Shown here piece after piece: positions 6,847-57,371 of a stretch of DNA of 57,371 bases. The notes below the pieces were generated by a model. The model ran no database searches, was not told where the DNA came from, and saw only the letters and a program-made list of their open reading frames with translations. A program made the position numbers and the translations under genes. How positions within the stretch are numbered: position 1 is the stretch's first letter; every line of letters starts with the position of its first letter. Source of the stretch: Candidatus Cacconaster stercorequi (GTDB lineage Bacteria; Bacillota; Clostridia; Oscillospirales; Oscillospiraceae); NCBI GenBank assembly GCA_018064925.1, contig JAGHUH010000027.1, positions 1-57,371 on the forward strand. Direction: 5' to 3'.

Positions 6847-7467
6847 TTATCCTTTCTCCAACCAGAAGCGCCATGGAAAGTCTACGGCTTCTTCTGCATA
6901 GTCGATGCCGATCCGTTTACCGGTGTGTACGGTATAGTGCGGCACTTCGGCCTCCGGCAACCCTACATCGACGGGGGAAGTACATAAAAACAGATTACCA
7001 ACCGTTAGATCAATCTGATTAAAAGATCTGTCAATTGATAATCCTTTACAGCATTTTCCGGGGCCATTGAGGAAATTTTTCCGCTGATAAGCGCTCATAC
7101 GGTCGGGAGAACAGCCAAACCTGGCGCGGGCAATGGCCTGCGTGCCATAGACCGGTTCCAATCCCCGCAGCAGCACCGCCTCCGGCTCGCCCTCGGGATT
7201 GGTGACGAAGTTCAAGCAGCAGTGCATCCCGTAAATCAGGTACACATAGGCGTATCCCGGAGGACCGAACAGGGGAGCATTCCGGGGTGTTTTATGATAG
7301 CCGTAGGCGTGACAGGCTTTGTCGATGGAGCCCACATAGGCCTCCGTTTCTGTGATGCGGCAGACCAACGGCTGGCCGTCGATAATGCGCACCAGATATT
7401 TGCCAAGCAGATTTCTGGAAATTTCTACCGTATCACCAATGTAAAATTCTCGACAGAGTATTGCCAT
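6847..7467 (-). CDS. 3-methyladenine DNA glycosylase (AAG/MPG family)
   Basis: The 206-residue protein matches the AAG/MPG glycosylase fold that removes alkylated or deaminated purines. Conserved blocks are LLGKYLVR near residue 20, ITETEAYVG near 38-46 with the general-base glutamate, YVYLIYGMHCCLNFVT near 74-89, and LNGPGKCCKGLSID near 130. Length is typical. It is the first gene of a minus-strand operon with the HAD hydrolase and the CDP-alcohol phosphatidyltransferase; the spacing of only 8 bases suggests one transcript. GAGGTGAGAGG sits directly before the ATG. Confidence 0.93.
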   Translation of the reverse strand: MAILCREFYIGDTVEISRNLLGKYLVRIIDGQPLVCRITETEAYVGSIDKACHAYGYHKTPRNAPLFGPPGYAYVYLIYGMHCCLNFVTNPEGEPEAVLLRGLEPVYGTQAIARARFGCSPDRMSAYQRKNFLNGPGKCCKGLSIDRSFNQIDLTVGNLFLCTSPVDVGLPEAEVPHYTVHTGKRIGIDYAEEAVDFPWRFWLEKG

Positions 7468-7487
7468 CCTCTCACCTCAATGATAAA

Positions 7488-7516
7488 ATCATACCATCGA
7501 ATGAGGCGGCTGTAAA
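7488..7516 (-). promoter_or_regulatory. Sigma-A-type promoter for the glycosylase operon
   Basis: On the minus strand, TTTACA and TATGAT are separated by 17 bases, about 20 bases before the glycosylase start. Predicted from consensus match only. Confidence 0.55.
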
Positions 7517-7541
7517 CTGCCATTTTTGAGGAGGAAGAGAA

Positions 7542-8429
7542 ATGCCGCAGTATGATTATAAAAAGGGCTTGGGTGCCATGGCGGTGTGTTATCTGATCTG
7601 GGGATTTCAGCCGCTGTATTTCGCCCTGTGCGGTGAGGTGGATACCTTTTTCCTGATGGCCTGCCGCATTATCTGGGCGGCGGTGGGCTGCCTGATCCTG
7701 CTGAAGATACAGGGCAAGCTGCCGCAGCTGACGGCGGCATTTCGGGACAAAGCTGTCATGAAGCGTGAGATCCCTGCATCGCTGTTCCTGTTTGCCGACT
7801 GGCTGATCTACCTGTGGGCGGTGCAGAACGGCAGGGTGATGGAGTGCAGTCTGGGCTACTACATTCAGCCGCTGGTGGTATTCTTCTTCGGCGCGCTGAT
7901 TTTCAAGGAAAAGATCACATGGCGCCATTTAGCAATATTAGCCATCGTTGTGGTGGGAATTGTGCTGTCTGTTAACGGGTTTCACGGCGTGCCGTATGTG
8001 ACCATTGCACTGGCGCTGGCCTTTGCCATATATGCTGCTATTAAAAAGAGCCTGACCATTGATTCCATCGTGTCTACCACCATGGAGATCACCATGATGG
8101 TGCCGGTGGCATTGATTTTTGTCCTGCTGTTCCGCATGGGTGAAAACGGCATCGGCGGCTTGACGGCGGTGCGGCAGCTGCTGATGATCGGCAGCGGCGT
8201 GGTGACCTGCATACCCATGCTGTTCTATGCCATCGGCGTACGGAACCTGCCGCTGATGACCACAGGAATCTGTCAATATCTTAGTCCCACACTGGCGATC
8301 TTCTGCGGGATGATTATGGGGGAGAGTCTGACGCGGGAAAAGCTCATCAGTTTTCTATTCATCTGGACAGGTGTGATTCTGTATACGGTGAATGCTTTTT
8401 ATGAGGAGCGCAAAAGGAAAAGTGCATAG
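7542..8429 (+). CDS. rarD: RarD/EamA-family transporter
   Basis: This 295-residue membrane protein has about ten hydrophobic helices in two EamA repeats. The RarD subgroup is recognised by the N-terminal KKGLGAMAVCYLIWGFQPLY, the central block LFADWLIYLWAVQNGRVMECSLGYYI written here in parts (FADWLIYLWAV, SLGYYIQPL) and the C-terminal QYLSPTLAIF. Members are thought to export metabolites; E. coli RarD is linked to chloramphenicol sensitivity, but the substrate is unknown. GAGGAGG precedes ATG 7542, and a terminator follows directly. It is divergent from the glycosylase operon. Confidence 0.9.
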   Translation: MPQYDYKKGLGAMAVCYLIWGFQPLYFALCGEVDTFFLMACRIIWAAVGCLILLKIQGKLPQLTAAFRDKAVMKREIPASLFLFADWLIYLWAVQNGRVMECSLGYYIQPLVVFFFGALIFKEKITWRHLAILAIVVVGIVLSVNGFHGVPYVTIALALAFAIYAAIKKSLTIDSIVSTTMEITMMVPVALIFVLLFRMGENGIGGLTAVRQLLMIGSGVVTCIPMLFYAIGVRNLPLMTTGICQYLSPTLAIFCGMIMGESLTREKLISFLFIWTGVILYTVNAFYEERKRKSA

Positions 8430-46318: not shown

Positions 46319-46834
46319 TTATTTGTCAAAGGACGGATTGATATAGTAAATGTTCTTCTGATTCATTTTCTCCTTTGCCAGACGCAATCCCTCACCAAAA
46401 CGCTGGAAGTGAACAATCTCGCGGGCGCGCAGGAATTTGATGGCATCATTGACATCCGGGTCATCGCTGAGCCGCAGAATGTTGTCGTAGGTGACACGTG
46501 CCTTTTGCTCTGCGGCTAGATCTTCCGTCAGATCGGCAATCAGATCGCCCTTGACCGCCATGGAAGCAGCGCTGTAAGGAAATCCGGAGGCGGCAGTTGG
46601 ATAAACGCCGGTGGTTCGATCCACAAAATAGGTATCAAATCCGGCGGTTTTGATCTGCTTTTCATTTAGATTGCGGGTCAACTGATGCACGATGGTGCCG
46701 ATCATTTCCAGATGCCCCAGTTCCTCTGTGCCGATATCGGTGAGCAGTCCCTTCAGTTCGGGATACGGCATGGAATATCGCTGACTTAAATAGCGCAGAG
46801 AGGCACCAAGCTCCCCGTCGGGCCCGCCGTATTG
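46319..46834 (-). pseudogene. cotJC: Spore coat protein CotJC, 5'-truncated by the prophage
   Basis: The frame runs from the stop at 46319 up to about 46834 and encodes 171 residues of a CotJC-like (manganese-catalase-like) spore coat protein. Conserved pieces are QYGGPDGELGASLRYLSQ, then DIGTEELGHLEMIGTIVHQL and FLRAREIVHFQRFGEGLR, with the His/Glu metal ligands. CotJC normally has about 25-30 more N-terminal residues; here codons before the glutamine at 46834 read IS-DYLFL with no start codon, and the recombinase coding sequence follows at once. The first in-frame ATG (46771) lies inside the conserved domain. Reconstitution would need excision of the element. Confidence 0.85.
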
Positions 46835-46850
46835 TAAAAACAGATAATCA
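46830..46850. other. Likely attachment-site junction
   Basis: Homology to cotJC coding begins at 46834 and the recombinase stop TGA is at 46848-46850, so the crossover should lie within or next to these bases. Exact core cannot be set without the other junction. Confidence 0.55.
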
Positions 46851-48302
46851 GATATAGAAATATATGGCCAAACGGTGGTTGGCCTTGTCGTATACGATAT
46901 GGTCTATGATGGTGCGGAGGGCTTTATTTTTGGCGTCGGGGGTGGCGTCGGACTGAATGAAGGATAGAACACCGGAAACTTTTTCGGCGTATGCGGTCTT
47001 GTCAAAATCCAGGGGATCGACGGAGGTGTTCGCTTCCTGCTCCTGTAGCCGGCGGATATTTTCCGTGATGCGGGATTTGTTTTCGCGGTATTCTTCCAGC
47101 GTGTCAATGCCGGACTGATAGGCATCCTTACAACGGGATAGCTTGCGCTGCTCCTGCTCGATCAGGCGGGCATAGTCAACCGTTTGTCGTGGGGCGGAGG
47201 TGCGATGCGGCGTCATGGTGAAATCCAGATTGGCGACGGCATCCGACAGGGCGGACATCAGCGCGGCTTCGGCCTTGCGCTGGGACAGGCAATGGGACAC
47301 GGCGCAGGATCCCTTTGCGTATTTATGGCACTGCAAAAATGGGGAATTGGTTTTCAGGCCGGCAAGGATCAGCGTGGAGCCGCAGGAAGAGCAGCGAACA
47401 AGTCCCTTGAGCATCCAGTTGGCTACATCATCCTGGCGCTGGTAACGTCCATAGGAAGCCTTGCGCTGATCCATGCGCTGCTGGACGGCATCCCACAACG
47501 CCTGATCGATAATAGGCGGGTGCTTGCCAGCCACAAGCTGCACGCCGTCATCCACATGAACGCGGGAGTATTTGGTCTTATGATCCGGAGTCCAGCGGAT
47601 CTTACCGATATACACCGGATTCCGCAGCATATACTCCACAAACCGATTGTCCGGCGGGTTGCCGCGGCGGGTGGTAACACCTATGGCGTTCAGCTCTGCG
47701 GCGATCTCACGGAAGCCGGCACCGTCTGCGTACCGGTGAAACACCCGGCGGACGATATCGGCGCGATCAACATCCACTATGTAGGTCTTATTGGCGCTGT
47801 CGATGCGATAGCCGAAGGGGGCGGTTCCCATGGCCTCACCACGCAGGAACTTCTCTGTCATGCCGCGCTTGACCTCAGAGGACAGATTGATGAGGTAATA
47901 CTCGTCAAACCACTCGATGATGCTTTCGATGAGCGTACCGAAAGGACCGTCGATGGCGGGCTCCTTGACGGAGATCACGGAGATCCCCTGCTTGCGCAGC
48001 AGCCCCTTATAGAGAACGCTTTCTTCACGGTTGCGGCAGAAGCGGGAGAACATCAACACCAGAATGGCATCAAAGGGCTTTTCTTTCTCTTTCGCCATGG
48101 CAATCATGCGTGTAAAGGCGGGACGCTTGCGGGCCGTGGCGGCGGAAATGCCGTCATCCTGGAACACATAGTCGTCCGGGATCAGGTAGCCGTTCTTCTT
48201 TGCGTACTCGCGGATGATACGGATCTGACTATCCGGGGAATACTCCTCCTGATCGTCCGTGCTGACACGGATATAAGCGGCGGCGATTTTCAGATCGGAC
48301 AT
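46848..48302 (-). CDS. Large serine recombinase (phage integrase)
   Basis: The 484-residue enzyme has an N-terminal resolvase domain with YIRVSTDDQ at residues 10-18 (catalytic Ser14), a recombinase domain around 165-275, a zinc ribbon with CSSCGSTLI and a downstream C-x-K-YAKGSC near 305-330, and a C-terminal helical/coiled-coil arm from about 375. The architecture fits serine integrases such as those of TP901-1 and of skin elements. It ends 14 bases from the cotJC remnant and is transcribed toward it. Directional excision would need a partner factor (RDF), which is not seen here. Confidence 0.95.
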   Translation of the reverse strand: MSDLKIAAAYIRVSTDDQEEYSPDSQIRIIREYAKKNGYLIPDDYVFQDDGISAATARKRPAFTRMIAMAKEKEKPFDAILVLMFSRFCRNREESVLYKGLLRKQGISVISVKEPAIDGPFGTLIESIIEWFDEYYLINLSSEVKRGMTEKFLRGEAMGTAPFGYRIDSANKTYIVDVDRADIVRRVFHRYADGAGFREIAAELNAIGVTTRRGNPPDNRFVEYMLRNPVYIGKIRWTPDHKTKYSRVHVDDGVQLVAGKHPPIIDQALWDAVQQRMDQRKASYGRYQRQDDVANWMLKGLVRCSSCGSTLILAGLKTNSPFLQCHKYAKGSCAVSHCLSQRKAEAALMSALSDAVANLDFTMTPHRTSAPRQTVDYARLIEQEQRKLSRCKDAYQSGIDTLEEYRENKSRITENIRRLQEQEANTSVDPLDFDKTAYAEKVSGVLSFIQSDATPDAKNKALRTIIDHIVYDKANHRLAIYFYI

Positions 48303-48420: not shown

Positions 48421-49773
48421 TTAAGTAGAACAATTTGGAATGCGGCTACTGGGATAGTGGCCTTTGATAAAATCATTATAGTAACGGCCAACAGAATCAG
48501 AAGATCTCATTCTGGAAAATATGGCAGGAGAGACACCAGAATACTTGTACCAATAGCCGGAGCCGGACATTTGGAGAAGTAATGAAAGGGATTTTTCGTT
48601 ATATCCAGCGCGAGAAATACAGGTGGAATCTACGCGATAGATTGGGAAACGCAGGCCGGATAGATAAAAATCGACAGGGGAATCATCAAGGAAACGTTCA
48701 CGTTTCACACGCAAAGCATCTTGCGCCTTTTTCCAGTCTTCGAGCTTATCGGAAGGGATGCGAACGGTCATGCCGTTTGCGGCTTTTGCATAAATAAAAG
48801 CAACTTTGCGTGACCCGGAATTTGTGACGCGATCATGGTATTCCTGCTTGATGTTGTCCTGATGCCTTTTCGTGATCCCGGGATAAATGATCTCAAGGCC
48901 ATCCATGATTTCTTTATATTTGTCTACCCATGACACATCGGGAGCGTGGGGGAGACAGAAGTTACAGGGGCGTGGTTTGGGATAACCGTATTTACCGCAA
49001 TACAGTATATAATAGTTTTTGAGGGAAGAGCATTGGGTGTATCTGCATTCCGGTGTGTGATAAACGCCGGAATTGGGATTGACATATACATAGTACCGAT
49101 CATCTTTAAAATAAAAAGCGCCAAGCTGACGGGGGAGACCTTCGTCGTCCAGATAGGAATCGGAGGGGACGCCGGAGACTTCCTCGGGAGATAAAAGGTC
49201 GGAGGTAAAAAAACTGTGTTGCAAAGCGGAATATTGGGATTCGAGGTCAAGACAGCTTCGTTTCAATTCAGAAGATAAAAAGCCGCGTATAAAAGAATAA
49301 TACTGAGATTGGAGGTCAAGGAAGTTTTGTTTCAGCACAGGGATGCCTGCTTTTAGGTTTTGCTTACCCATATATCGGCGCTGGATGGACATTAAAACGA
49401 GGCAGATAATGAGAGCGAAAAAACAAGATGCGAAAAATACGACAGCGACAAAACCGGGAGAAGTGGAAAAGTCTTTTTCCGGGGCTGGCGGGTCATAGAA
49501 TGGGGAAGTGCGGGTATTGCCGCTGGAGGTACTGGGGCTGCCGCTGTTCCAGCGGATTCTGTCATTAAAATCATAGGGACAGTCCGGGATGCCGTCGCCG
49601 TCAATATCATAGTGCTGGTGTGCAGAATAGCCGTGGTGATAATGGTATTCACTGGTGCTGTGGTCAAAGTGGCCGCCGTTTTCATCTGTTTGACCGGGAT
49701 GAGCGGATGCTATGACACTACAAAAAATTGTAATGAAACACAACAGAAAAATGATGGAAGTTAAACGCTTCAT
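48421..49773 (-). CDS. YHYH-domain membrane protein, prophage cargo
   Basis: The 450-residue protein has an N-terminal signal peptide, followed by HPGQTDENGGHFDHSTSEYHYHHG, seen in parts, around residues 25-48 (a YHYH-type histidine motif), a Ca-binding-like DIDGDGIPDCPYD near 57-69, a Ser/Thr/Pro linker, a transmembrane helix near 110-132, then a cytoplasmic or second domain with a YVNPNSGVYHTPECRYTQCS block near 230-249. I do not recognise the C-terminal 300 residues. It lies between the integrase and the repressor, inside a pair of direct repeats, in a typical cargo position. Function is unknown. Confidence 0.75.
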   Translation of the reverse strand: MKRLTSIIFLLCFITIFCSVIASAHPGQTDENGGHFDHSTSEYHYHHGYSAHQHYDIDGDGIPDCPYDFNDRIRWNSGSPSTSSGNTRTSPFYDPPAPEKDFSTSPGFVAVVFFASCFFALIICLVLMSIQRRYMGKQNLKAGIPVLKQNFLDLQSQYYSFIRGFLSSELKRSCLDLESQYSALQHSFFTSDLLSPEEVSGVPSDSYLDDEGLPRQLGAFYFKDDRYYVYVNPNSGVYHTPECRYTQCSSLKNYYILYCGKYGYPKPRPCNFCLPHAPDVSWVDKYKEIMDGLEIIYPGITKRHQDNIKQEYHDRVTNSGSRKVAFIYAKAANGMTVRIPSDKLEDWKKAQDALRVKRERFLDDSPVDFYLSGLRFPIYRVDSTCISRAGYNEKSLSLLLQMSGSGYWYKYSGVSPAIFSRMRSSDSVGRYYNDFIKGHYPSSRIPNCST

Positions 49774-49797: not shown

Positions 49798-49834
49798 ATT
49801 ACCCTGCCGCATTTTCGGATGCGGTGGGGTTTTT
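49798..49834. repeat. Direct repeat copy 2 (end of repressor gene)
   Basis: It covers the last codons of the CI-like gene and the bases behind them. It matches 48365-48401 at about 34 of 37 positions. Confidence 0.7.
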
Positions 49835-50164
49835 ATTTGCATAGGGAGCAAGGGCGGTATCCACAATGTCACGGATGGGTTGCGGAGCGGCGCGGTAGGC
49901 GGAGAGAAGCTCACCCTCGGCGGGGGTGATGGAGGGGGATTGCCGGGGGGCAATGCTCGCCCCTATGGGGGTGATGTCGCGGCCCAGAAGGTAATCCGTG
50001 CTGACGCCGAATAGGTCGGCAAGTTTACAGATATTGTCGGATGTGGGGGTTTTCTTTCCGCTTTCCCAGTCACTTACGGATGGAGCGGAAACATGGAGAG
50101 TGATTGCAACTTCCTTTTGACTAAGCCCGGAGTTAATCCGCGCAATTCTGATGTTGTTATCCAT
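49799..50164 (-). CDS. CI-like repressor (XRE HTH)
   Basis: The 121-residue protein has an N-terminal HTH (residues about 3-60: MDNNIRIARINSGLSQKEVA with VSAPSVSDWESGKKTPTSD) and a short C-terminal part without the LexA-type protease domain. It should hold the prophage dormant by binding the operators upstream of its own promoter. It is divergent from the Cro-like gene. Its last codons are duplicated 1.4 kb downstream. Confidence 0.85.
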   Translation of the reverse strand: MDNNIRIARINSGLSQKEVAITLHVSAPSVSDWESGKKTPTSDNICKLADLFGVSTDYLLGRDITPIGASIAPRQSPSITPAEGELLSAYRAAPQPIRDIVDTALAPYANKNPTASENAAG

Positions 50165-50310: not shown

Positions 50311-50333
50311 ATTTCCAAGAAAGGGGGGTGCTT

Positions 50334-50510
50334 ATGAATTGGCTGGAAGCTATTAGAGCAAGAAGGAGTCAGGCGGAAGTGGCAAAAGAGGCAGGTATCA
50401 GTCAGGCGTTTTACTGTGAGATTGAAACCGGGAAGAAACGTCCCAGCGTGGCGGTGGCCAAGCGGATCGCGGCGGTGCTGGGATTCGAGTGGGTGAGGTT
50501 CTTTGAGTGA
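50334..50510 (+). CDS. Cro-like HTH protein
   Basis: The 58-residue protein consists of little more than an XRE helix-turn-helix: AIRARRSQAEVAKEAGISQA and FYCEIETGKKRPSVAVAKRI. Its position directly behind the operator array and opposite the repressor gene fits Cro. ATG 50334 follows AAAGGGGGG; an in-frame GTG at 50328 lies within that site. Confidence 0.8.
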   Translation: MNWLEAIRARRSQAEVAKEAGISQAFYCEIETGKKRPSVAVAKRIAAVLGFEWVRFFE

Positions 50511-50557: not shown

Positions 50558-50734
50558 ATGGCAGGGAAAAAGCTGGGATACATCTGCTACATGATGGACA
50601 AAAAGACCGGAGAGGTGCAGGAGATCCAGCAGGTGGCGCCGGAGGTCAAGCAGAAGTGGGCGGAGCGTCTGAGCTCCACAATGAGCGACTACTACACACA
50701 GCACATGGACGAATACACGAAGCTGCACATATAA
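50558..50734 (+). CDS. Small early prophage protein, 58 aa
   Basis: The frame begins MAGKKLGYICYMMDKKTGEV and is mostly charged and helical. GGAGGTGG lies upstream, and its stop overlaps the GGAGG site of the next gene. No domain recognised; similar short proteins are frequent at this position in clostridial phages. Confidence 0.7.
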   Translation: MAGKKLGYICYMMDKKTGEVQEIQQVAPEVKQKWAERLSSTMSDYYTQHMDEYTKLHI

Positions 50735-50747
50735 GGAGGAAAGCGGT

Positions 50748-51023
50748 ATGCGATACTGCTGGCTATGCGGCGGGCCGGAAACAAGCGCGGATCCGATGGA
50801 CACGCACCACATTTTCGGCGGGAGTAACCGGAAGAAAAGCGAGAGGATGGGGCTGACGGTGGATCTGCACCACAACAAATGCCACATCTTCGGGAAAAAA
50901 GCTGTACACAACTGCGCGGAAACCATGCAGGCGCTGCACGAATACGGGCAGCGCCTGGCCATGGAAAACATGGGATGGGACAAGGATACGTTCCGAAGAG
51001 AGTTTGGAAAGAACTATCTGTAA
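50748..51023 (+). CDS. HNH-like nuclease or zinc protein, prophage
   Basis: The 91-residue protein has CWLCGG near residues 4-9, then DTHHIFGGSNRKKSE near 18-32 and LHHNKCHIFGKKAVHNC, seen in parts, near 40-56. The C-x2-C followed by a HH-x-F pattern is the reduced HNH fold found in small phage proteins (DUF968/NinG-like). It could be a recombination or late-control nuclease. A strong AAGGAGG site precedes ATG 50748. Confidence 0.65.
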   Translation: MRYCWLCGGPETSADPMDTHHIFGGSNRKKSERMGLTVDLHHNKCHIFGKKAVHNCAETMQALHEYGQRLAMENMGWDKDTFRREFGKNYL

Positions 51024-51031
51024 TAAAAAAC

Positions 51032-51107
51032 GGCGCATTAGCTCAATCGGCAGAGCATCCCGCTCATAACGGGACGGTTCCGGGTTCAATCCCCCGATGC
51101 GCCACCA
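51032..51107 (+). tRNA. tRNA with CAT anticodon (Met or Ile2), CCA encoded
   Basis: Acceptor GGCGCAT/ATGCGCC, D arm GCTC-AATCGGCA-GAGC, anticodon stem TCCCG/CGGGA with loop CTCATAA, T arm with a mismatch in its stem (C-C), and encoded ACCA. CAT may be elongator Met or lysidine-modified Ile. Confidence 0.9.
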
Positions 51108-51139
51108 CGCCCGTATGGGCCTGTCATAAATATATATCG

Positions 51140-51215
51140 GATCCCCGTAAAACGCTGACGAATATCGTGCTGGTACCGCGATATTCGCTCCGGTGCAATT
51201 CCGGTTGGGGAATCA
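51140..51215 (+). ncRNA. tRNA-like element without a D arm
   Basis: TCCCCG (51142-51147) pairs with TGGGGA (51206-51211). A T-arm-like hairpin CCGG-TGCAATT-CCGG (51190-51204) resembles TTCRANY. Between them, an 11-bp stem (51159-51169 with 51177-51187, one G-U) closes a 7-base loop CTGGTAC that would present GGT, the Thr anticodon. No D arm fits: only 11 bases link acceptor and stem. It ends one base before tRNA-Gly, so it could be processed with it. Not a normal tRNA, possibly a decayed tRNA-Thr or a mimic. Confidence 0.35.
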
Positions 51216-51216
51216 T

Positions 51217-51290
51217 GCAGCATTGGTGTAAAGGAAGCACATCTGCCTTCCAAGCAGACGGTGCCGGTTCGAGTCCGGTATGCTGCTCCA
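51217..51290 (+). tRNA. tRNA-Gly(TCC), CCA encoded
   Basis: Acceptor GCAGCAT/ATGCTGC with discriminator T and encoded CCA, anticodon stem TCTGC/GCAGA with loop CTTCCAA (anticodon TCC), T arm GTGCCGGTTCGAGTCCGGTA. It reads GGA and GGG. Confidence 0.94.
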
Positions 51291-51528
51291 CCCGGCTCGA
51301 GATGAGAGGGCCGGGCCTCCTATAAGCCGAGGGCGATAAAAAGCGGCTCCGCTGCGGTAGACACGCAAGGTCACGCGGCGGCCTCCGGACGAAAAGCCGG
51401 ACGCCGTGCCGGAGGTCGGGCGGACAAGGAAATCCATAACGAAAGAAGGGAATGCACCTCCCGATGGGTCGATGGACGCCCGGCCTGTGCCGGCGCAAGG
51501 AGGACAAGATACAAAAAGGAGACAAGTT
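51291..51528 (+). ncRNA. GC-rich noncoding stretch with several stems
   Basis: These 238 bases hold no good reading frame with a ribosome site until 51529. Stems seen are CCCGGC/GCCGGG (51291-51315), CCTCCGG/CCGGAGG (51382-51415) and CGGGCG/CGCCCG (51417-51482) with an internal GGGA/TCCC. It may be a phage regulatory RNA or a long 5' leader for the next gene; no known family was recognised. Confidence 0.35.
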
Positions 51529-51723
51529 ATGACAGAGGAAAGAAAAAACGAGCTGCAATGGCTCTGGGAAAATGAGACAAATGATCCGGAGACAGAGGAA
51601 TGGCGTGACGAGCTGGACGCAGATGAAATGATGTTTGTGGAAAAACTGGACGAGCAGTACGAGCGTGGATTGGGAAAGCTGCTGAACGATTGGGAAAGAA
51701 TGCAGAACGGTGGTGAAGCGTGA
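51529..51723 (+). CDS. Small acidic prophage protein, 64 aa
   Basis: A 64-residue, strongly acidic protein (many Glu and Asp; NETNDPETEEWRDELDADEM near residues 15-34). AAGGAG lies about 8 bases before ATG 51529. No domain was recognised; acidic DNA-mimic roles are possible but unsupported. Confidence 0.7.
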   Translation: MTEERKNELQWLWENETNDPETEEWRDELDADEMMFVEKLDEQYERGLGKLLNDWERMQNGGEA

Positions 51724-51809
51724 TGGAGTGGATCATGTGCTACATAGGAGCCGGCACAGTGGCGTACCTGCTGATGAGAGGGTGGAAAAATCTGGATGGA
51801 GAGAAGTAA
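51723..51809 (+). CDS. 28-aa membrane peptide
   Basis: MEWIMCYIGAGTVAYLLMRG begins at the ATG that overlaps the stop of the preceding gene (TGATG), and a short charged tail follows. One hydrophobic helix. Small size means only moderate certainty. Confidence 0.5.
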   Translation: MEWIMCYIGAGTVAYLLMRGWKNLDGEK

Positions 51810-52023
51810 TCCATGCGAGATGTGCGCCGAGAAGGTGATCTGCCGCGGATACTGCGCGGCAGTTGGACCGTATATCAACGAGCTGCGGAGAGAGCAGGAA
51901 GCGAAACGGCAGAGGGAAAGGAGACACCGTGAAGAAAAGAACACAGAAGCTGACGCGGCGCATGAAAATTGTGCTGAGTGCAGCGGGAAGAAACCCGGAG
52001 GAATATCGACTGCACCACATTGA
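51796..52023 (+). CDS. Small Cys-containing prophage protein (overlapping)
   Basis: The 75-residue frame begins MERSNPCEMCAEKVICRGYC with C-x2-C and two further cysteines, then a charged helix and a basic tail. It overlaps the genes before and after it, the latter by 95 bases. The Cys-rich start resembles a zinc-binding motif and is unlikely to be a chance frame, but its C-terminal half may not be real. Confidence 0.45.
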   Translation: MERSNPCEMCAEKVICRGYCAAVGPYINELRREQEAKRQRERRHREEKNTEADAAHENCAECSGKKPGGISTAPH

Positions 52024-52090
52024 TCGGGAAACCGGGAAGTGGGTGTTCATCCACAAGGTGACCGGAGAGACGGTACAGGCGGATATGTAG
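51929..52090 (+). CDS. DUF6906-like small prophage protein, 53 aa
   Basis: The protein starts at GTG 51929, 6 bases behind AAAGGAG, and reads KLTRRMKIVLSAAGRNPEEY near residues 8-27, then IDRETGKWVFIHKVTGET. This order of TR-x-x-K-I-x-L-x-x-A-G-x-x-P, then a TG-x-x-x-x-I-x-x turn, matches small DUF6906-type phage proteins from clostridia (recognised by pattern). Function unknown. Confidence 0.65.
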   Translation: MKKRTQKLTRRMKIVLSAAGRNPEEYRLHHIDRETGKWVFIHKVTGETVQADM

Positions 52091-52102
52091 CGAGGAAGTG
52101 AC

Positions 52103-52330
52103 ATGATGGAGTACAGGGTATATGACGCAGAGGGCGTTTTCGTGGGAAGCGGAGGAGTGAGAGAACAGGCTGTTGAAGCGGCGAAGCGAAAAGCACGCAA
52201 GGACGGAAAGCCGATAGACGTGGTGCAGGTGAGCGACCGGGGAGGAATCAAACGATGCCGATACTGGCCGGACGGCACCGTGGAAAGGATGTGGCTGCAC
52301 GATGGCGACAAAAAAGACAGAGTACGATAA
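52103..52330 (+). CDS. Small prophage protein with R/K-rich N-terminus, 75 aa
   Basis: The 75-residue protein reads MMEYRVYDAEGVFVGSGGVR at the N-terminus and EQAVEAAKRKARKDGKPIDV next, resembling a short single-domain phage protein with a beta-alpha-beta pattern. Tandem ATGs at 52103 and 52106; GAGGAAG lies upstream. It overlaps the next gene by 29 bases. Unknown. Confidence 0.65.
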   Translation: MMEYRVYDAEGVFVGSGGVREQAVEAAKRKARKDGKPIDVVQVSDRGGIKRCRYWPDGTVERMWLHDGDKKDRVR

Positions 52331-52637
52331 ATGCTGGGTGGTGACACACCCGGATCACGGACGCGCCTATGTGGTGGCGGACAACTGGGAGCAGGCCACG
52401 GTGAAGGCCGCAAAATTCTGGGGCGTGAAATGGCGGGATGTGGCGTTCTTCTGCGATCTGGAAAAGACGATGGAGGCAAGGAAGAATGTATGCCTAAAGT
52501 GCCGGCGGATCATCTACACCAAAAGTGAACTGTGTCCGGATTGCGCCCATGCCCTGCGGGTGGAGGATGAACAGGTAAAGAACAGGCTGCGGAATTCGTG
52601 GTACCTGGGCAAGAAAGGGGATGCATTTGGGACATGA
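52302..52637 (+). CDS. Prophage protein with zinc ribbon, 111 aa
   Basis: The 111-residue protein has a charged, Trp/Lys-rich N-terminal half and a C-terminal zinc ribbon: CLKCRRIIYTKSELCPDC near residues 64-81 (two C-x2-C). No ribosome site is obvious before ATG 52302, so it may rely on coupling to the preceding gene. The next gene starts inside its stop codon (ATGA). Confidence 0.7.
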   Translation: MATKKTEYDKCWVVTHPDHGRAYVVADNWEQATVKAAKFWGVKWRDVAFFCDLEKTMEARKNVCLKCRRIIYTKSELCPDCAHALRVEDEQVKNRLRNSWYLGKKGDAFGT

Positions 52638-52858
52638 CGGATCGGCCGAAGTGCCCGTGTACGGCCGAGTGCCGGGAAAGATCCGCACGGTGCCGGATCA
52701 GCTGCGAGAGGTACGCCGTGTACGAGGCGGAGCGCGGGAAGTATTACGAAGAAAAAACAAAATCCATCGAAAGGCGGCAGAGTGCCGGGATGATGACGGC
52801 GGCACACGCCGCAAAGATGCGGGACAACGCGCGAAAGAAAAGGGAGGGGCGGTTATGA
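52634..52858 (+). CDS. Small basic Cys-containing prophage protein, 74 aa
   Basis: The 74-residue protein begins MTDRPKCPCTAECRERSARC, has five cysteines in the first 25 residues (C-x-C-x3-C and more), then a long charged helix. It overlaps both neighbours by four bases (ATGA). It may bind zinc through its N-terminal cysteines; no known family. Confidence 0.65.
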   Translation: MTDRPKCPCTAECRERSARCRISCERYAVYEAERGKYYEEKTKSIERRQSAGMMTAAHAAKMRDNARKKREGRL

Positions 52859-53169
52859 CGGTACATACGAGAGAAGATCTGATCGCACGATGGAGATGCT
52901 GCGCAGAGGGGAACTGCGGGAGCTGTCCGGGCGAGATGGAGCTCTGTGATGGGCTTGAGGCCGAAACGATAAAGATGCTGGAGGGAGACGCGGCGGAGCT
53001 GCAGAATAAGCAGCGGCATATTGACAGCCTGCTGCTGGCCAACGAGGGGCTGCGGAACAACATGGGACACATGATGCAGGAAAACCAGCGCCTGAAGGAG
53101 GAAAACGAGAGGCTGCACCGTGAGAATTTCTGGCTGAGTGGAGGGGAGGAAAGAAATGGAACGGACTAA
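52855..53169 (+). CDS. Coiled-coil prophage protein, 104 aa
   Basis: The 104-residue protein has CCAEGNCGSCPGEMELC near residues 15-31 (a Cys-rich block) and a coiled coil from about 45 to 95 (LLLANEGLRNNMGHMMQENQ and RLKEENERLHRENF). It overlaps the next gene by 14 bases and the previous by four. Unknown role, possibly a scaffolding or transcription partner. Confidence 0.65.
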   Translation: MTVHTREDLIARWRCCAEGNCGSCPGEMELCDGLEAETIKMLEGDAAELQNKQRHIDSLLLANEGLRNNMGHMMQENQRLKEENERLHRENFWLSGGEERNGTD

Positions 53170-53422
53170 TTATATTGAGAGAATTTTTCTGGCGGGGGAG
53201 AAGGGATTTCTTCCGATTCTGGAAGAGGCGCTGCGTGAGATCGGAGAGGACGAGACGAAGCTCGTGAACAAGTATAAGGACGATTTGCCGATTTTGCTGG
53301 CATGTCTAAGAGAGATGATTTCTCAAATTGAGGAAATCTGCGGAGAAAGCGGGAAAGAGCTTGCTAACGATCTTGGCCAAATGATTGGCATCGTAAGGTT
53401 TAGCGTTCCGATGGATAAATAA
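53156..53422 (+). CDS. Small helical prophage protein, 88 aa
   Basis: The 88-residue, largely helical and acidic protein begins MERTNYIERIFLAGEKGFLP. ATG 53156 is preceded by GGAGGGGAGG. The start lies inside the end of the previous gene. No domain recognised. Confidence 0.65.
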   Translation: MERTNYIERIFLAGEKGFLPILEEALREIGEDETKLVNKYKDDLPILLACLREMISQIEEICGESGKELANDLGQMIGIVRFSVPMDK

Positions 53423-53427
53423 AAAAT

Positions 53428-53454
53428 GCCCTGCCGGATGGAGCCCGGCAGGGC
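53428..53454. other. GC-rich hairpin before the PcfK-like gene
   Basis: A perfect 10-bp stem GCCCTGCCGG with CCGGCAGGGC (loop ATGGAGC) lies in the 102-base gap between 53422 and 53525. No T tract follows, so it may be a stabilising element or weak terminator. Confidence 0.5.
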
Positions 53455-53524
53455 GGTGAAGTATAGGGACTATATTCCACGCCTCTATTGTAATGCGTGG
53501 GACAAGGAATTGCAAGGAGGAAAT

Positions 53525-53890
53525 ATGAGTAATTTTTACGATGACGCCATCCAGAAGCTGGATGAAGGTGTGAAGGCAAAGCACAAGAGCCGCGAGGCGG
53601 AGGCCATGAAGAAGGCGGTTGCCGATAAGCTGAAGGAATTCTGTAAGCAGGATGATGAATTTGCGCAGGCCGTTGTACAGGGCGGAAAATTCACGGACTG
53701 CATGGATGCCGTGAAGAAGAAGGTCAAGGGGAACAGCATCAGCGACATTGACGCATATAACACGGCGGCAGATTTCTATTTCCCGGGCGCGACTATTCGC
53801 ATGAAAATGGAAATCGACCTGTGCGGGAGTGTGGACGGCGAGGAAGTCGAGCCGGAGACGAAGATCCTCGACCTGTCGGATTTCCTGTGA
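53525..53890 (+). CDS. PcfK-like prophage protein
   Basis: The 121-residue helical protein has KSREAEAMKKAVADKLKEFC near residues 20-39 and EFAQAVVQGGKFTDCMDAVK near 44-63, the layout of PcfK-like proteins of enterococcal plasmids and clostridial phages. It immediately precedes the PcfJ-like gene, the usual pairing, with 10 bases between. GGAGG lies upstream. Role unknown, though the pcfJK pair is found with DNA mobility genes (family context). Confidence 0.65.
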   Translation: MSNFYDDAIQKLDEGVKAKHKSREAEAMKKAVADKLKEFCKQDDEFAQAVVQGGKFTDCMDAVKKKVKGNSISDIDAYNTAADFYFPGATIRMKMEIDLCGSVDGEEVEPETKILDLSDFL

Positions 53891-53900
53891 GGTGGCTGAC

Positions 53901-55553
53901 ATGACGGAACGAGAAAAAAGGATCGAGTGGCTGACGACACACGCGCCGGCGCTGGATGAGAACGATTATAGGACGCTGAACAGCGTATATCAGCCGTATC
54001 TATTTCGCCGGCGGAAGACCGGCGAGCTGTGGACAAGCTGCTGCGGGCAGCATGCGCAGTTGGATGCAAACAGCGCTGTGATGCTGGCCGAGCATGAGCC
54101 GGAGCCGCCGCGCGGATACTGGTCGAGCCAAAGGTATATCCCGAAGCCCCAGATCGTCAAGTGCCCCATCTGCGGGAAGGTTGGACGCGTGAAAGAAGTG
54201 GGACGCACCGGCCGGCGCGATAACCTGTATGCCTTTGACCGCCACATCATCCTCAAGTGGTATCGCGGCGCCCTGTGGGGGCTGGGCGTACACACCGAGA
54301 AGTACTACGGCGGCGAGCTGACGGCGCTGCCGGGGGCAAAGATCACGAAGATCTACCGCTTCACGCCGGGGCGGTGCGAGTATGTGGGGCGAGATTGGTG
54401 GTACCAAAGCAGCATATGGACCAGTTACAGCGAGCTGAAAGGTAGCAGCCTCTGCGCCGGCTGGAAGTGGCCGGACGGCTTTCCGTACTGCGCAGAGCAC
54501 GGAACGGCCTACCACCTGCACGGCGCGGGAGAGGCAGCAAAGAGCCAGACATTACGGTACTGCTTCCGGGAGGAATGGATCCCGGGCGGTAAAGCTATGC
54601 GGTACCTTGCGCTGTGCTGCGTATATCCGAGGCAGGTGGAGATGCTGGGAAAGATCGGGTGCACCGCTGCCATCGATGATATGGTACGACACGGTAAACG
54701 CAACGCCCGGGCATTTAACTGGGACGAGGAAAACCCCGGGAAAGGATTTGCTATCGGAAAGGATGCGATGCGCGAGTGGAAAGATGCCGGCGGAGATCTG
54801 GCGTATTTGGAGGTTTACAAGCTTCTGGCCAAAAAGGGGAAGCCGGCGACATTTGGTGAGCTGGCAGAGCTCAGGCGCTACACTCACGGCGGCATCGGAG
54901 ATTTTAAGCGGGCCGGACAGGCGTGTGCGCGGCACGGGATTTCGGTTCGGAAGCTGTGCAATTATTTCGGCAAACAGAAAATCGGAAGCCCATTGCGGAC
55001 ATGGATTGACACCATAACAGCCGCCGAGAAGATCGGGATCGATCTCGAGAACGAGATCAATCTCCTACCCAAAAATCTTGTGGAAAAGCACGATCTGTGG
55101 ACACATACCGCCGCTCTGCTTTTTGCTGAAAAAGAGAGTGAGGAACAGCGGAAAAAGATGAAGGCGCGGGCAAAAGTACTCGCAAAGAAGTACACATACA
55201 CAGACGGAACACTTCTAATCCGGCCTCCCGTCAGCTGCGGCGAGATCACTGCAGAAGGAAAGTATCTGAAGCACTGTGTGGGCGGATATGCGCACCGCCA
55301 CGCCGATGGGAAAACGACGATCCTTTTCCTGCGTAGGCGGGACAGGCCAGGCATCCCGCTGTGTACAATCGAGATGAAAGGGAGCAAGATCATCCAGATC
55401 CACGGATACCGGAATGAATGGGAGCCGTGCCGGGATAACCCGCAGAGGAAAGACCCGCGTGAACTGTATAAGGGTTTTCTGGGCGCGTGGATCGCATGGG
55501 TGGAAGCCGGAAGCAAACGCGAGAAGAAAAAGAAAGTGAGGAAAACAGCATGA
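53901..55553 (+). CDS. PcfJ-like prophage protein
   Basis: The 550-residue protein has a PcfJ signature in the C-terminal part: AEGKYLKHCVGGYAHRHADG near 455-474 and CTIEMKGSKIIQIHGYRN near 488-505. A zinc-ribbon-like VKCPICGKVGRVKE is near residue 85. ATG 53901 is preferred since GAGGTG lies just before it; earlier in-frame ATGs give a non-homologous extension. The enzyme-like C-terminal domain has no known activity. It is among the longest early genes and is followed by the DUF3102 gene overlapping at ATGA. Confidence 0.75.
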   Translation: MTEREKRIEWLTTHAPALDENDYRTLNSVYQPYLFRRRKTGELWTSCCGQHAQLDANSAVMLAEHEPEPPRGYWSSQRYIPKPQIVKCPICGKVGRVKEVGRTGRRDNLYAFDRHIILKWYRGALWGLGVHTEKYYGGELTALPGAKITKIYRFTPGRCEYVGRDWWYQSSIWTSYSELKGSSLCAGWKWPDGFPYCAEHGTAYHLHGAGEAAKSQTLRYCFREEWIPGGKAMRYLALCCVYPRQVEMLGKIGCTAAIDDMVRHGKRNARAFNWDEENPGKGFAIGKDAMREWKDAGGDLAYLEVYKLLAKKGKPATFGELAELRRYTHGGIGDFKRAGQACARHGISVRKLCNYFGKQKIGSPLRTWIDTITAAEKIGIDLENEINLLPKNLVEKHDLWTHTAALLFAEKESEEQRKKMKARAKVLAKKYTYTDGTLLIRPPVSCGEITAEGKYLKHCVGGYAHRHADGKTTILFLRRRDRPGIPLCTIEMKGSKIIQIHGYRNEWEPCRDNPQRKDPRELYKGFLGAWIAWVEAGSKREKKKKVRKTA

Positions 55554-56524
55554 GTGAGATCATCACCGTGCCGATGGCGGCACAGAGAGACATCCAGACG
55601 ATTACGGCGGAGATTAGGGTCTATGTGCACCAGGGAATGGTGGCGGCAATAGAAATCGGCAGGCGCCTGGTAGAGGCAAAGGATATGCTAGAGCACGGAG
55701 AATGGGGGAGATGGCTGGAGGAGGAAGCCAACATATCGCAGAGCAATGCACAAATCTACATGAGTGTATTCCGGGAATACGGAAGCGGGCAGCAGAGCCT
55801 GTACGGGGACAGCAGTGCCATGCTGGAGAAGATACCGAACCTGACCATGGCGCATGAGCTGCTGGCCATTAAGGATCTTGCCGAGCGGGAAAAATTCGTG
55901 GAGGAGCATGATCTGTCGGAGATGAGCACCCGCGAGCTGAAGCAGGCCATCCGGGAGCGGGACGAGGCGAAGGATCGCGCCGAGGAGGCGGAAAGAGCAC
56001 TGGATCAGGCACGAAGCGAGGCAACCGGATATTTCCACAGCCAGCAGGATATGGAAAAGAAGTGGCGCGCGGCACAGGATGAGGCAAGGAGCGCCAGAGA
56101 GAGAGCGGAAAAAGAAAAGGCAAACGCCGTTGCTGCCGAGAAAAAGCTGAAGGAACTGCAGGAGCATCCGGAGATCCCGGAGGGCACCATGGAGCAGCTG
56201 CGGCGCGAGGCGGAGGAAAAGGCCGCCAAGGAAGCGCTGGAGAAGGTGCAGAAAAAACTGGAGAAAGAGAAGAAACGAGCTGCAGAGGCGGAGAAGGCAG
56301 AACGGCAGGCGAAGGAGAAGCTGGAGAACATCCGGAAGCAGTCGGCGATGGCGGACGCAGACACAGCGCTTTTCAGTCTGCATTATAAGGAAATACAAAA
56401 TAAATTTGAACAGCTGAAGCAGTTGTATGCCAGGATCAGGGAGCAGGACGAGGAGAAGGCGGACAAGCTGAAGGGAGCCATGAAGGCGCTGCTGGAGAGC
56501 ATGGAGGAAACATGGGAAAGATGA
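55550..56524 (+). CDS. DUF3102-domain coiled-coil prophage protein
   Basis: The 324-residue protein has the DUF3102 domain at about 15-110, recognised from AAIEIGRRLVEAKDMLEHGE and EEANISQSNAQIYMSVFREY, with a predicted helix-turn-helix-like shape. The following 200 residues form a long, Glu/Lys/Ala-rich coiled coil (residues about 130-310). The family appears in phage and plasmid regions and has been linked to partition-like or DNA-binding roles (family impression). It overlaps both neighbours by four bases. Confidence 0.75.
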   Translation: MSEIITVPMAAQRDIQTITAEIRVYVHQGMVAAIEIGRRLVEAKDMLEHGEWGRWLEEEANISQSNAQIYMSVFREYGSGQQSLYGDSSAMLEKIPNLTMAHELLAIKDLAEREKFVEEHDLSEMSTRELKQAIRERDEAKDRAEEAERALDQARSEATGYFHSQQDMEKKWRAAQDEARSARERAEKEKANAVAAEKKLKELQEHPEIPEGTMEQLRREAEEKAAKEALEKVQKKLEKEKKRAAEAEKAERQAKEKLENIRKQSAMADADTALFSLHYKEIQNKFEQLKQLYARIREQDEEKADKLKGAMKALLESMEETWER

Positions 56525-56577
56525 GATGGCATGACGCCAAAACAGATCCACCGGACCTGCCGGGGGAGGAAACATGA
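56521..56577 (+). CDS. 18-aa frame bridging two genes, DUF551-like start
   Basis: ATG 56521 overlaps the DUF3102 stop (ATGA), and the stop TGA (56575-56577) overlaps the next ATG. MRWHDAKTDPPDLPGEET resembles the beginning of DUF551 phage proteins, which are normally 60-70 residues. It may be a decayed gene or a translational bridge. Confidence 0.35.
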   Translation: MRWHDAKTDPPDLPGEET

Positions 56578-57173
56578 AGCGAGAAAACGAGGGAATGAAA
56601 AAATGCCGGAAGTGCATCTACCGCAACAAGGGAAGATGGAAAGATTATGGGTGCAATCACATGGATGTGGCTGGCGTATCACGGCTGTTGCGGGGGAAGA
56701 TGGAAGGATATGCAACGGTGGACAAAATGGGGACGGTGCATTTCCCGGTGGAGGACTGCCCATTCTGGCGGGATACAGAAATCTGGACACGGGATGGCAT
56801 CCCGGCGCAGAAGCCGAAGGACGGGAAAATGTCAAAGATGTGCAGAGAAAAGAAGAAACGAGGCCTTGCGCCGGAAAAGGTAACGCTGATCGTGGAGCTG
56901 CTGAAAAGCGGGGCAGCCTACAAAGAAATTGCGCAGAAAGCAAGGTGCAGCGTGCCAACCATCTGCAAGGTAGCCGATCAGCACGGATTGAAGCGCAGAG
57001 CGGAATACAACCACGAGAAAACAGACGCGGAACGAATAGAGCTGTGGAAACAGGGAATGACGGACGGGCAGATCGCGGAGAAGCTGGGGCTGACGCGGAA
57101 GGCGATATGGTCATGGCGGACGGAGCGGGGGCTTGCGAGGAACGAGGAGCCGGTATGCGGAGGAAAGAAATGA
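56574..57173 (+). CDS. HTH/zinc-type prophage regulator, 199 aa
   Basis: The 199-residue protein has an N-terminal Cys/His block (KKCRKCIYRNKGRWKDYGC near residues 9-27) and two helix-turn-helix-like repeats in the C-terminal half: AYKEIAQKARCSVPTICKVAD near 115-136 is one and DGQIAEKLGLTRKAIWSWR near 163-181 the other. It could be a phage transcription activator or terminase-associated factor. ATG 56574 is preceded by GGGGGAGG. The next gene overlaps at ATGA. Confidence 0.6.
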   Translation: MKRENEGMKKCRKCIYRNKGRWKDYGCNHMDVAGVSRLLRGKMEGYATVDKMGTVHFPVEDCPFWRDTEIWTRDGIPAQKPKDGKMSKMCREKKKRGLAPEKVTLIVELLKSGAAYKEIAQKARCSVPTICKVADQHGLKRRAEYNHEKTDAERIELWKQGMTDGQIAEKLGLTRKAIWSWRTERGLARNEEPVCGGKK

Positions 57174-57371
57174 TAAAAGTGATACTGTGGTTTTTCGACA
57201 TTGTGTTGGTGCTGATCATCGCCATGGGATTCATGCGTGATGCGTACGGGTGGTGCATTGAGGACCCGGACGAAAATGCCAAGATCGATGCGGCGCTGGA
57301 CTGGCACTATCTTGATGGCGTCACGCTGACCGCCTACTGCAACTGCCCTGAATGCTGCGGCCAATGGTCTG
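57170..57371 (+). CDS. 3D-domain-like membrane/cell-wall protein, cut by window end
   Basis: The visible 67 residues have an N-terminal hydrophobic helix (WFFDIVLVLIIAMGF) and an end TLTAYCNCPECCGQWS that resembles the start of the 3D (Asp-Asp-Asp) domain of cell-wall lytic or resuscitation-type proteins (TAYCPCEKCCG pattern). It may be a phage lysis-related or spore/cell-wall enzyme. The rest lies outside the window. Confidence 0.7.
   Translation, partial: MIKVILWFFDIVLVLIIAMGFMRDAYGWCIEDPDENAKIDAALDWHYLDGVTLTAYCNCPECCGQWS

Follow-up and report, generated by a model that had tools for sequence, protein, structure and literature searches.

A prophage interrupting the coat gene cotJC and the recurrence of split cotJC genes among Clostridia

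The coat gene cotJC is split by a prophage in a 1.83-Mb MAG (46 contigs, 88% complete). The window, that is, the whole stretch of DNA analysed, is one entire contig of this genome (C37, 57,371 bp) and contains the 3' part of the gene, whereas the 5' part is found on a second contig, C11. We hold the insertion itself with high confidence, as both junctions and a restorable frame could be defined. The explanation that we consider likely is that the prophage splits cotJC and that its recombinase, together with a directionality factor, would excise the element in the sporulating mother cell, restoring the gene.

Results

Two parts of cotJC and a shared recombination core

The features around the junction in the window are the following:

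46319..46834, minus strand: 3' part of cotJC, codons 28-198, reading through to the natural stop
46821..46831, minus strand: recombination core TACGGCGGGCC, 11 bp, codons Y29 G30 G31 P32, from the junction alignment
46836..46847, minus strand: element-side half-site TTATCTGTTTTT, read from the sequence
46848..48302, minus strand: large serine recombinase, 484 aa, of the cotJC site-A clade (site A being the break at about codon 32)

The protein encoded by the 3' part matches Pfam Mn_catalase (1.4e-43). The initial annotation had read this frame as intact from 46319 to about 46834 and truncated at the N-terminus, and it is indeed stop-free on the minus strand; its alignment to full-length CotJC begins at codon 28 of 198, the N-terminal 27 residues being absent. 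The large serine recombinase, which had been placed 14 bp away, was confirmed next to it with Resolvase, Recombinase and Zn_ribbon domains, ending at 46848 and leaving a gap of 13 bp.

The N-terminal part, which had been predicted to lie at the far end of the element, was found on C11. Here a CotJB gene (C11:326-541, from a CotJB search of the same genome) is followed by the start of cotJC, MFIYEKKLQYPVRITNTNPKLAAVIISQYGGPDG, and then by unrelated sequence with a stop after three codons. This 5' piece was detected with an E value of 9.8e-15 and 86% identity over 35 codons, and it ends in an exact repeat of the core TACGGCGGGCC at C11:214-224, thus breaking at the same core as the window copy. 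The inverted partner half-site, AAAAAGATATAA in the sense of cotJC, is located at C11:195-206, each junction (C37 and C11) carrying one half of the inverted repeat on its element side. The symmetry of the deduced att site is one between half-sites and not that of a hairpin; single-strand folding of the deduced attP gave no signal (z 0.34). The element side of the C11 junction contains the end of a peptidoglycan-binding, endolysin-like protein (PF01471, 6.7e-15), which is what one would expect where the lysis genes of a prophage end.

A site-specific recombinase is therefore found at one end of the element, beside an att core that is repeated at the other, and the element divides cotJC into two parts that are both present and have open frames. 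Both fragments, the shared core and the half-sites together indicate that a prophage interrupts cotJC, and its precise excision would restore the gene. In all three other sampled genomes of the same genus (3/3), cotJC is intact with the core in place, as empty sites.

Taken alone, the window gives a cotJC without a start, which could be the dead remnant of a decayed duplicate. This is extremely improbable given the start of the gene behind CotJB, the two open frames and the exact core. A second full cotJC, which would have pointed to such a duplicate, was searched for, and none was found in the 88%-complete MAG beyond the two pieces. In addition, comparing the joined window cotJC with two intact relatives gave dN/dS values of 0.038 and 0.043, another two comparisons being saturated (NG86 estimates, here and below, rough where dS is above about 1).

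Prophage genes and contig ends

Beyond the recombinase, the window contains the following genes:

48421..49773, minus strand: prophage gene, KTSC domain protein
49799..50164, minus strand: HTH repressor-like gene
50328..50510, plus strand: HTH cro-like gene, start of the rightward early region
50558..50734, plus strand: candidate recombination directionality factor, 58 aa (E 3.9e-14 with a model built from five small proteins of related site-A elements)
50748..57370, plus strand: early prophage region, running off the contig end

The early region encodes a phrog_7566 protein, a PcfJ-like protein and a phrog_15609 protein. It also contains a tRNA-Met (51032-51107) and a tRNA-Gly (51217-51290). 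Features of the kind found in a temperate phage are distributed among contigs: the window has the integrase and the repressor-like and cro-like genes, C11 the peptidoglycan-binding end, and C15, which, like C24, shares 68 bp with the end of the window, has replication and packaging genes. These final 68 bp recur without mismatch both where C15 starts and where C24 ends, and the first 116 bp of C11 match the start of C25 at 98% identity. On C15 there are genes for a primase/helicase, a helicase, a terminase, a portal and a minor head protein, and on C24 a terminase and a portal that differ from those of C15, plus an internal virion protein. Judging from these common ends, more than one prophage seems to be present in the genome, with stretches in common, and the route from C37 to C11 is ambiguous.

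In a MAG of 46 contigs, whose relevant ends are common to other contigs, some of them phage-like, C11 and C37 could come from different metagenome strains or from two different elements, joined here as a chimera. We consider this very unlikely, as each junction is internal to its contig (about 210 bp from the end in C11 and about 10.5 kb in C37), the half-sites match, the core is the same and a search of the genome gave no empty-site cotJC.

Partial cotJC beside related recombinases

The window recombinase was scanned against a set with one genome per species, which yielded 54 loci, mostly from Clostridia. A partial cotJC is present in 49 of them, usually adjoining the recombinase; together with the C11 fragment and the shared core, this supports the proposal of the initial annotation that an element interrupts cotJC. 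The partial gene is missing from L023, L025, L060, L062 and L065, and in L025 and L060 the core is still found beside the recombinase. The hosts include the isolates Hungatella hathewayi DSM 13479, Lacrimispora xylanisolvens and Clostridium sp. MCC353. The core, of the form GG-GG-CC, could be aligned in 20/21 site-A junction pairs, with mismatches in several and with the register of L045 chosen wrongly.

Related loci were also found in viral contigs, half of which (7/14; L157, L158, L159, L160, L163, L164 and L165) contain a partial cotJC. Among the other seven, L155, L161 and L167 have a GG-GG-CC-like core near the recombinase. The recombinase of L161 is a close sister of that of L036 (H. hathewayi DSM 13479), and the two sequences coincide over the first half-site and up to a point within the core, after which L161 continues into a second half-site and not into cotJC. 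By this comparison, L161 carries an attP, the free form of the site. L167 and L042 part at the same point, the second half-site being less clear.

A full-length cotJC initially assigned beside the recombinase of L041 was rejected, as it is really the 3' part plus a spurious extension. The same locus shows two tandem att-like cores beside the recombinase (7430-7640), possibly the scar of a second site-A event. In Clostridium sp. Marseille-P2415 (L051, 1443-9153), three site-A recombinase copies are arranged in tandem, about 3 kb apart, each accompanied by a small protein gene.

Split cotJC in the family of the window

Two hundred genomes were drawn evenly from the family of the window, and a cotJC match was obtained in 158, all of which were searched again with full-length CotJC (53 with partial or multiple first matches, 79 and 26). 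Of the 42 genomes without a match, 20 were searched a second time, with one weak match. By a hand tally, cotJC is split with both fragments present in 43 of the 158 genomes. The breaks fall at codon ~32 (site A, 16 genomes), codon ~64 (site B, 25 genomes, counting G111 and G188 despite a stop in the 3' part) and codon ~136 (site C, 6 genomes), including double insertions at A and B in three genomes (G150, G029, G024) and at A and C in one (G143). In G150, and likewise in the isolate Clostridium sp. MCC353 (locus L045), the gene is cut twice and its three pieces are found in order on one contig; in several split-cotJC genomes the fragments are on different contigs. No second full-length cotJC at 50% identity or more was found among the 43 split genomes, four of which have a paralogue near 40% identity. 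Genomes with one fragment or an unclear second one were kept outside the 43 (for example G023, G126, G119, G097, G035, G026, G142, G165, G172, G052 and G062).

A fourth recurrent break, site D, lies near codon 172 (RFGE) and, with no recombinase assigned to it, is likewise outside the 43; examples are G072, G053, G017, G091, G067, G005, G116, G189, G061 and G058. In G072 (L120, 735-17666), no serine recombinase was detected by similarity at the break, and the first cotJC part runs into a different C-terminus. In G143:C1 (L131, L132, L133), where the gene is cut at A and C, the last part is on the opposite strand, as if by inversion or misassembly. The site-B element of G098 and G166 (L105, L106) is about 3.1 kb long and apparently consists mainly of the serine recombinase and what we take to be a pyrimidine-nucleoside-phosphorylase-like gene.

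Recombinase lineages and insertion sites

A FastTree tree was built from 109 recombinase rows, whose long branches make the deep order unsafe; some of the site labels were set by hand before building. The site-A recombinases form one clade of 78 rows (support 100), those of site C one clade of 5 rows, and those of site B two clades of 8 and 17 rows, one of the 17 being without a positional site assignment. Some rows of the site-A clade bear labels B, C or D (L022, L027, L033, L037, L052, L064), which, on inspection, we attribute to over-extended alignments. In the fetched loci, distinct recombinase lineages belong to distinct positions of cotJC, and the cores of the two site-B clades seem to be offset by a few bases. 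From the separate A, C and two B clades, at least four lineages converge on cotJC. That distantly related serine recombinases may converge on the same gene is a general observation (PMC10083194); in the main text of that paper, catalase and spore terms are absent, save in one reference title.

Small elements and selection on the split gene

For 18 site-A elements whose two ends fall within one fetched locus, the lengths are 1.9-6.9 kb, the longer type of the window standing outside this list. In the Lacrimispora group, elements of about 2.8 kb contain at least the recombinase, a small protein, a PdaC/DUF3298 protein and a 53-aa protein, and are syntenic in L043, L046, L047, L048, L057 and L061.

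The split genes, when joined, show strong conservation of the protein. Values of dN/dS are 0.017 (L043/L061) and 0.018 (L047/L061) at dS 0.54-0.57; the site-A joins used here extend one codon beyond the core and so create a stop at the L061 joint. In the closer pairs L043/L046 and L043/L047, dN = 0. Other joined pairs gave 0.005 (G053/G198), 0.013 (G145/G066) and 0.079 (G098/G166), and three more distant ones 0.009-0.033. For intact cotJC, the three distinct pairs with a usable value gave 0.019, 0.047 and 0.064, L151/L148 repeating L014/L015 and one other pair being saturated. As the split gene keeps its protein sequence, rejoining is the simplest explanation. It could also work in pieces, which seems unlikely for a start fragment of 32 codons.

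The age of the insertions bears on this argument. Between L043 and L061, dS is 0.81 and 1.19 for element genes, 0.54 for the cotJC 3' part, and 0.87-0.92 in three and 0.17-0.19 in the other three of six flanking genes. Element and host genes have dS 0.14-0.24 and 0.03-0.25, respectively, in L043/L047, and 0.35-0.95 and 0.09-0.73 in G053/G198. These values would fit old, shared elements. Since the element values lie at or above the host range, later replacement by a related element is possible, which weakens the selection argument. The recombinases of G145/G066 and G098/G166 are far more diverged, with dS above 2, so insertion may have been independent there. Overall, the small elements, with no phage gene recognised among the genes listed for them, and the strong purifying selection seen in these comparisons support the rejoining of cotJC at sporulation, which we consider distinctly likely in the hosts of mini-elements.

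A candidate directionality factor and its promoter

A family of proteins of about 50 aa is found in site-A elements; in mini-elements its gene adjoins that of the recombinase, and in longer elements it is placed elsewhere. From its size, position and co-occurrence, the window protein at 50558-50734 is a candidate directionality factor of this family. The motif AC-N16/17-CATA is located at most 80 bp upstream of 22/24 distinct type-1 candidates (20 in a stricter form), against a mean of 1.5 and a maximum of 5 expected from shuffles; type 1 is defined by a sequence pattern, some of its members are near-identical, and starts were chosen by a length rule. Among all 39 distinct small proteins, 27 have the motif (shuffle mean 2.1, maximum 8), five matches to second or out-of-frame fragments (L163, L164, L165, L049, L042) having been dropped before counting. 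The corresponding number for other ORFs of the same loci is 36/597, with 20 strict. Motif occurrences are homologous and thus not independent. In its sequence, the motif is similar to C. difficile mother-cell promoters, which have a CATATAAT-like -10 and, for sigmaK, an AC -35. According to PMC3789822, the cotJ genes are expressed in the mother cell, and in C. difficile the cotJB2-cotD operon depends on sigmaK. A search for CATA[ACT]A-N-T in the sequence before cotJC in 19 loci, over at most 1300 bp, gave scattered matches in four and no shared box; that scan therefore lends no support to a joint control of the cotJ operon and the directionality factor.

In the window, AC-N16/17-CATA was absent within 150-200 bp before the candidate factor, the recombinase and the cro-like gene. 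The factor could possibly have another mother-cell promoter, and, positioned as it is behind the cro-like gene, control by the lytic switch is equally plausible. These observations, together with the presence of repressor and cro-like genes, agree with ordinary lysogeny, in which a conserved core in a dispensable gene serves for integration, excision takes place only on lytic induction and spores are formed without CotJC. B. subtilis mutants without this protein show no apparent defect according to a 2025 report (PMC12122855), which also fits. However, lysogeny accounts less well for a split gene that is conserved in relatives with small syntenic elements, and for the four recombinase lineages that converge on cotJC. 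We regard it as possible, if somewhat doubtful. As for excision timed by sporulation in this very strain, we find the case evenly balanced.

Discussion

In the mechanism that we favor, excision in the sporulating mother cell, the large serine recombinase of a temperate prophage has integrated the element at the conserved 11-bp core in codons 29-32, splitting cotJC into the parts now found on C11 and in the window. Growing cells would lose the gene, which they would not need. The recombinase and the small directionality factor would then recombine attL with attR and excise the element, leaving an open cotJC. Excision in the mother cell is likely for the small elements of the relatives; for the window prophage, we infer it.

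Several known systems are comparable. The skin element in sigK of B. subtilis and C. difficile carries a serine recombinase at one of its ends, splits a gene of the mother cell and encodes a small directionality factor, for which the window has a candidate, and its excision restores the gene (PMC5025042). Excision of skinCd needs the RDF, under sigmaE and SpoIIID (PMC5025042). The targets differ, a sigma factor in skin and a coat enzyme gene in the window; moreover, the window element, unlike skin, has phage early genes, and its excision is postulated. SPbeta, an active prophage with integrase and directionality factor, lies inside the spore-envelope gene spsM of B. subtilis (PMC4191935, PMC6957869), and its excision is controlled by sprB, which has a mother-cell promoter (PMC6957869). 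It differs from the window element in its target, and the candidate factor of the latter is without the mother-cell motif found in relatives.

Of the proteins GirC and GirX, GirC is the recombinase. The gin element in gerE of B. cereus and yin in yabG of C. botulinum depend on a recombinase plus a small protein, GirC and GirX (42 aa), and can be compared with the small cotJC elements of the relatives (PMC5595907, PMC10747680). The gin and yin elements are described at single sites, whereas cotJC is struck at at least three positions by four lineages, sometimes twice. The C. difficile phage phi027 has its attachment site beside cotG, a CotJC-like gene, but there the gene lies downstream of attR and is not described as split in the available text (PMC11222575, PMC12122855). 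The interrupted sporulation genes named in the sources available are sigK, spsM, spoVFB (printed as spoIVFB in one paper), spoVR, gerE and yabG, and kamA is interrupted by a phage. The initial annotation knew of no description of cotJC as such a target, and in the open-access literature searched no report of a split cotJC was found among the matches listed.

With at least four lineages, three or four positions and some genes that would require two excisions, we lean slightly towards cotJC being a general developmental rearrangement locus of Clostridia. If so, a doubly split cotJC would need two excisions, timed by the mother-cell promoters of the directionality factors, before the coat protein is made. 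If the rejoining is real, the phenomenon would be common and not anecdotal, providing many natural replicates of the passage from phage to developmental switch, as well as a supply of pairs of recombinase and directionality factor with defined sites.
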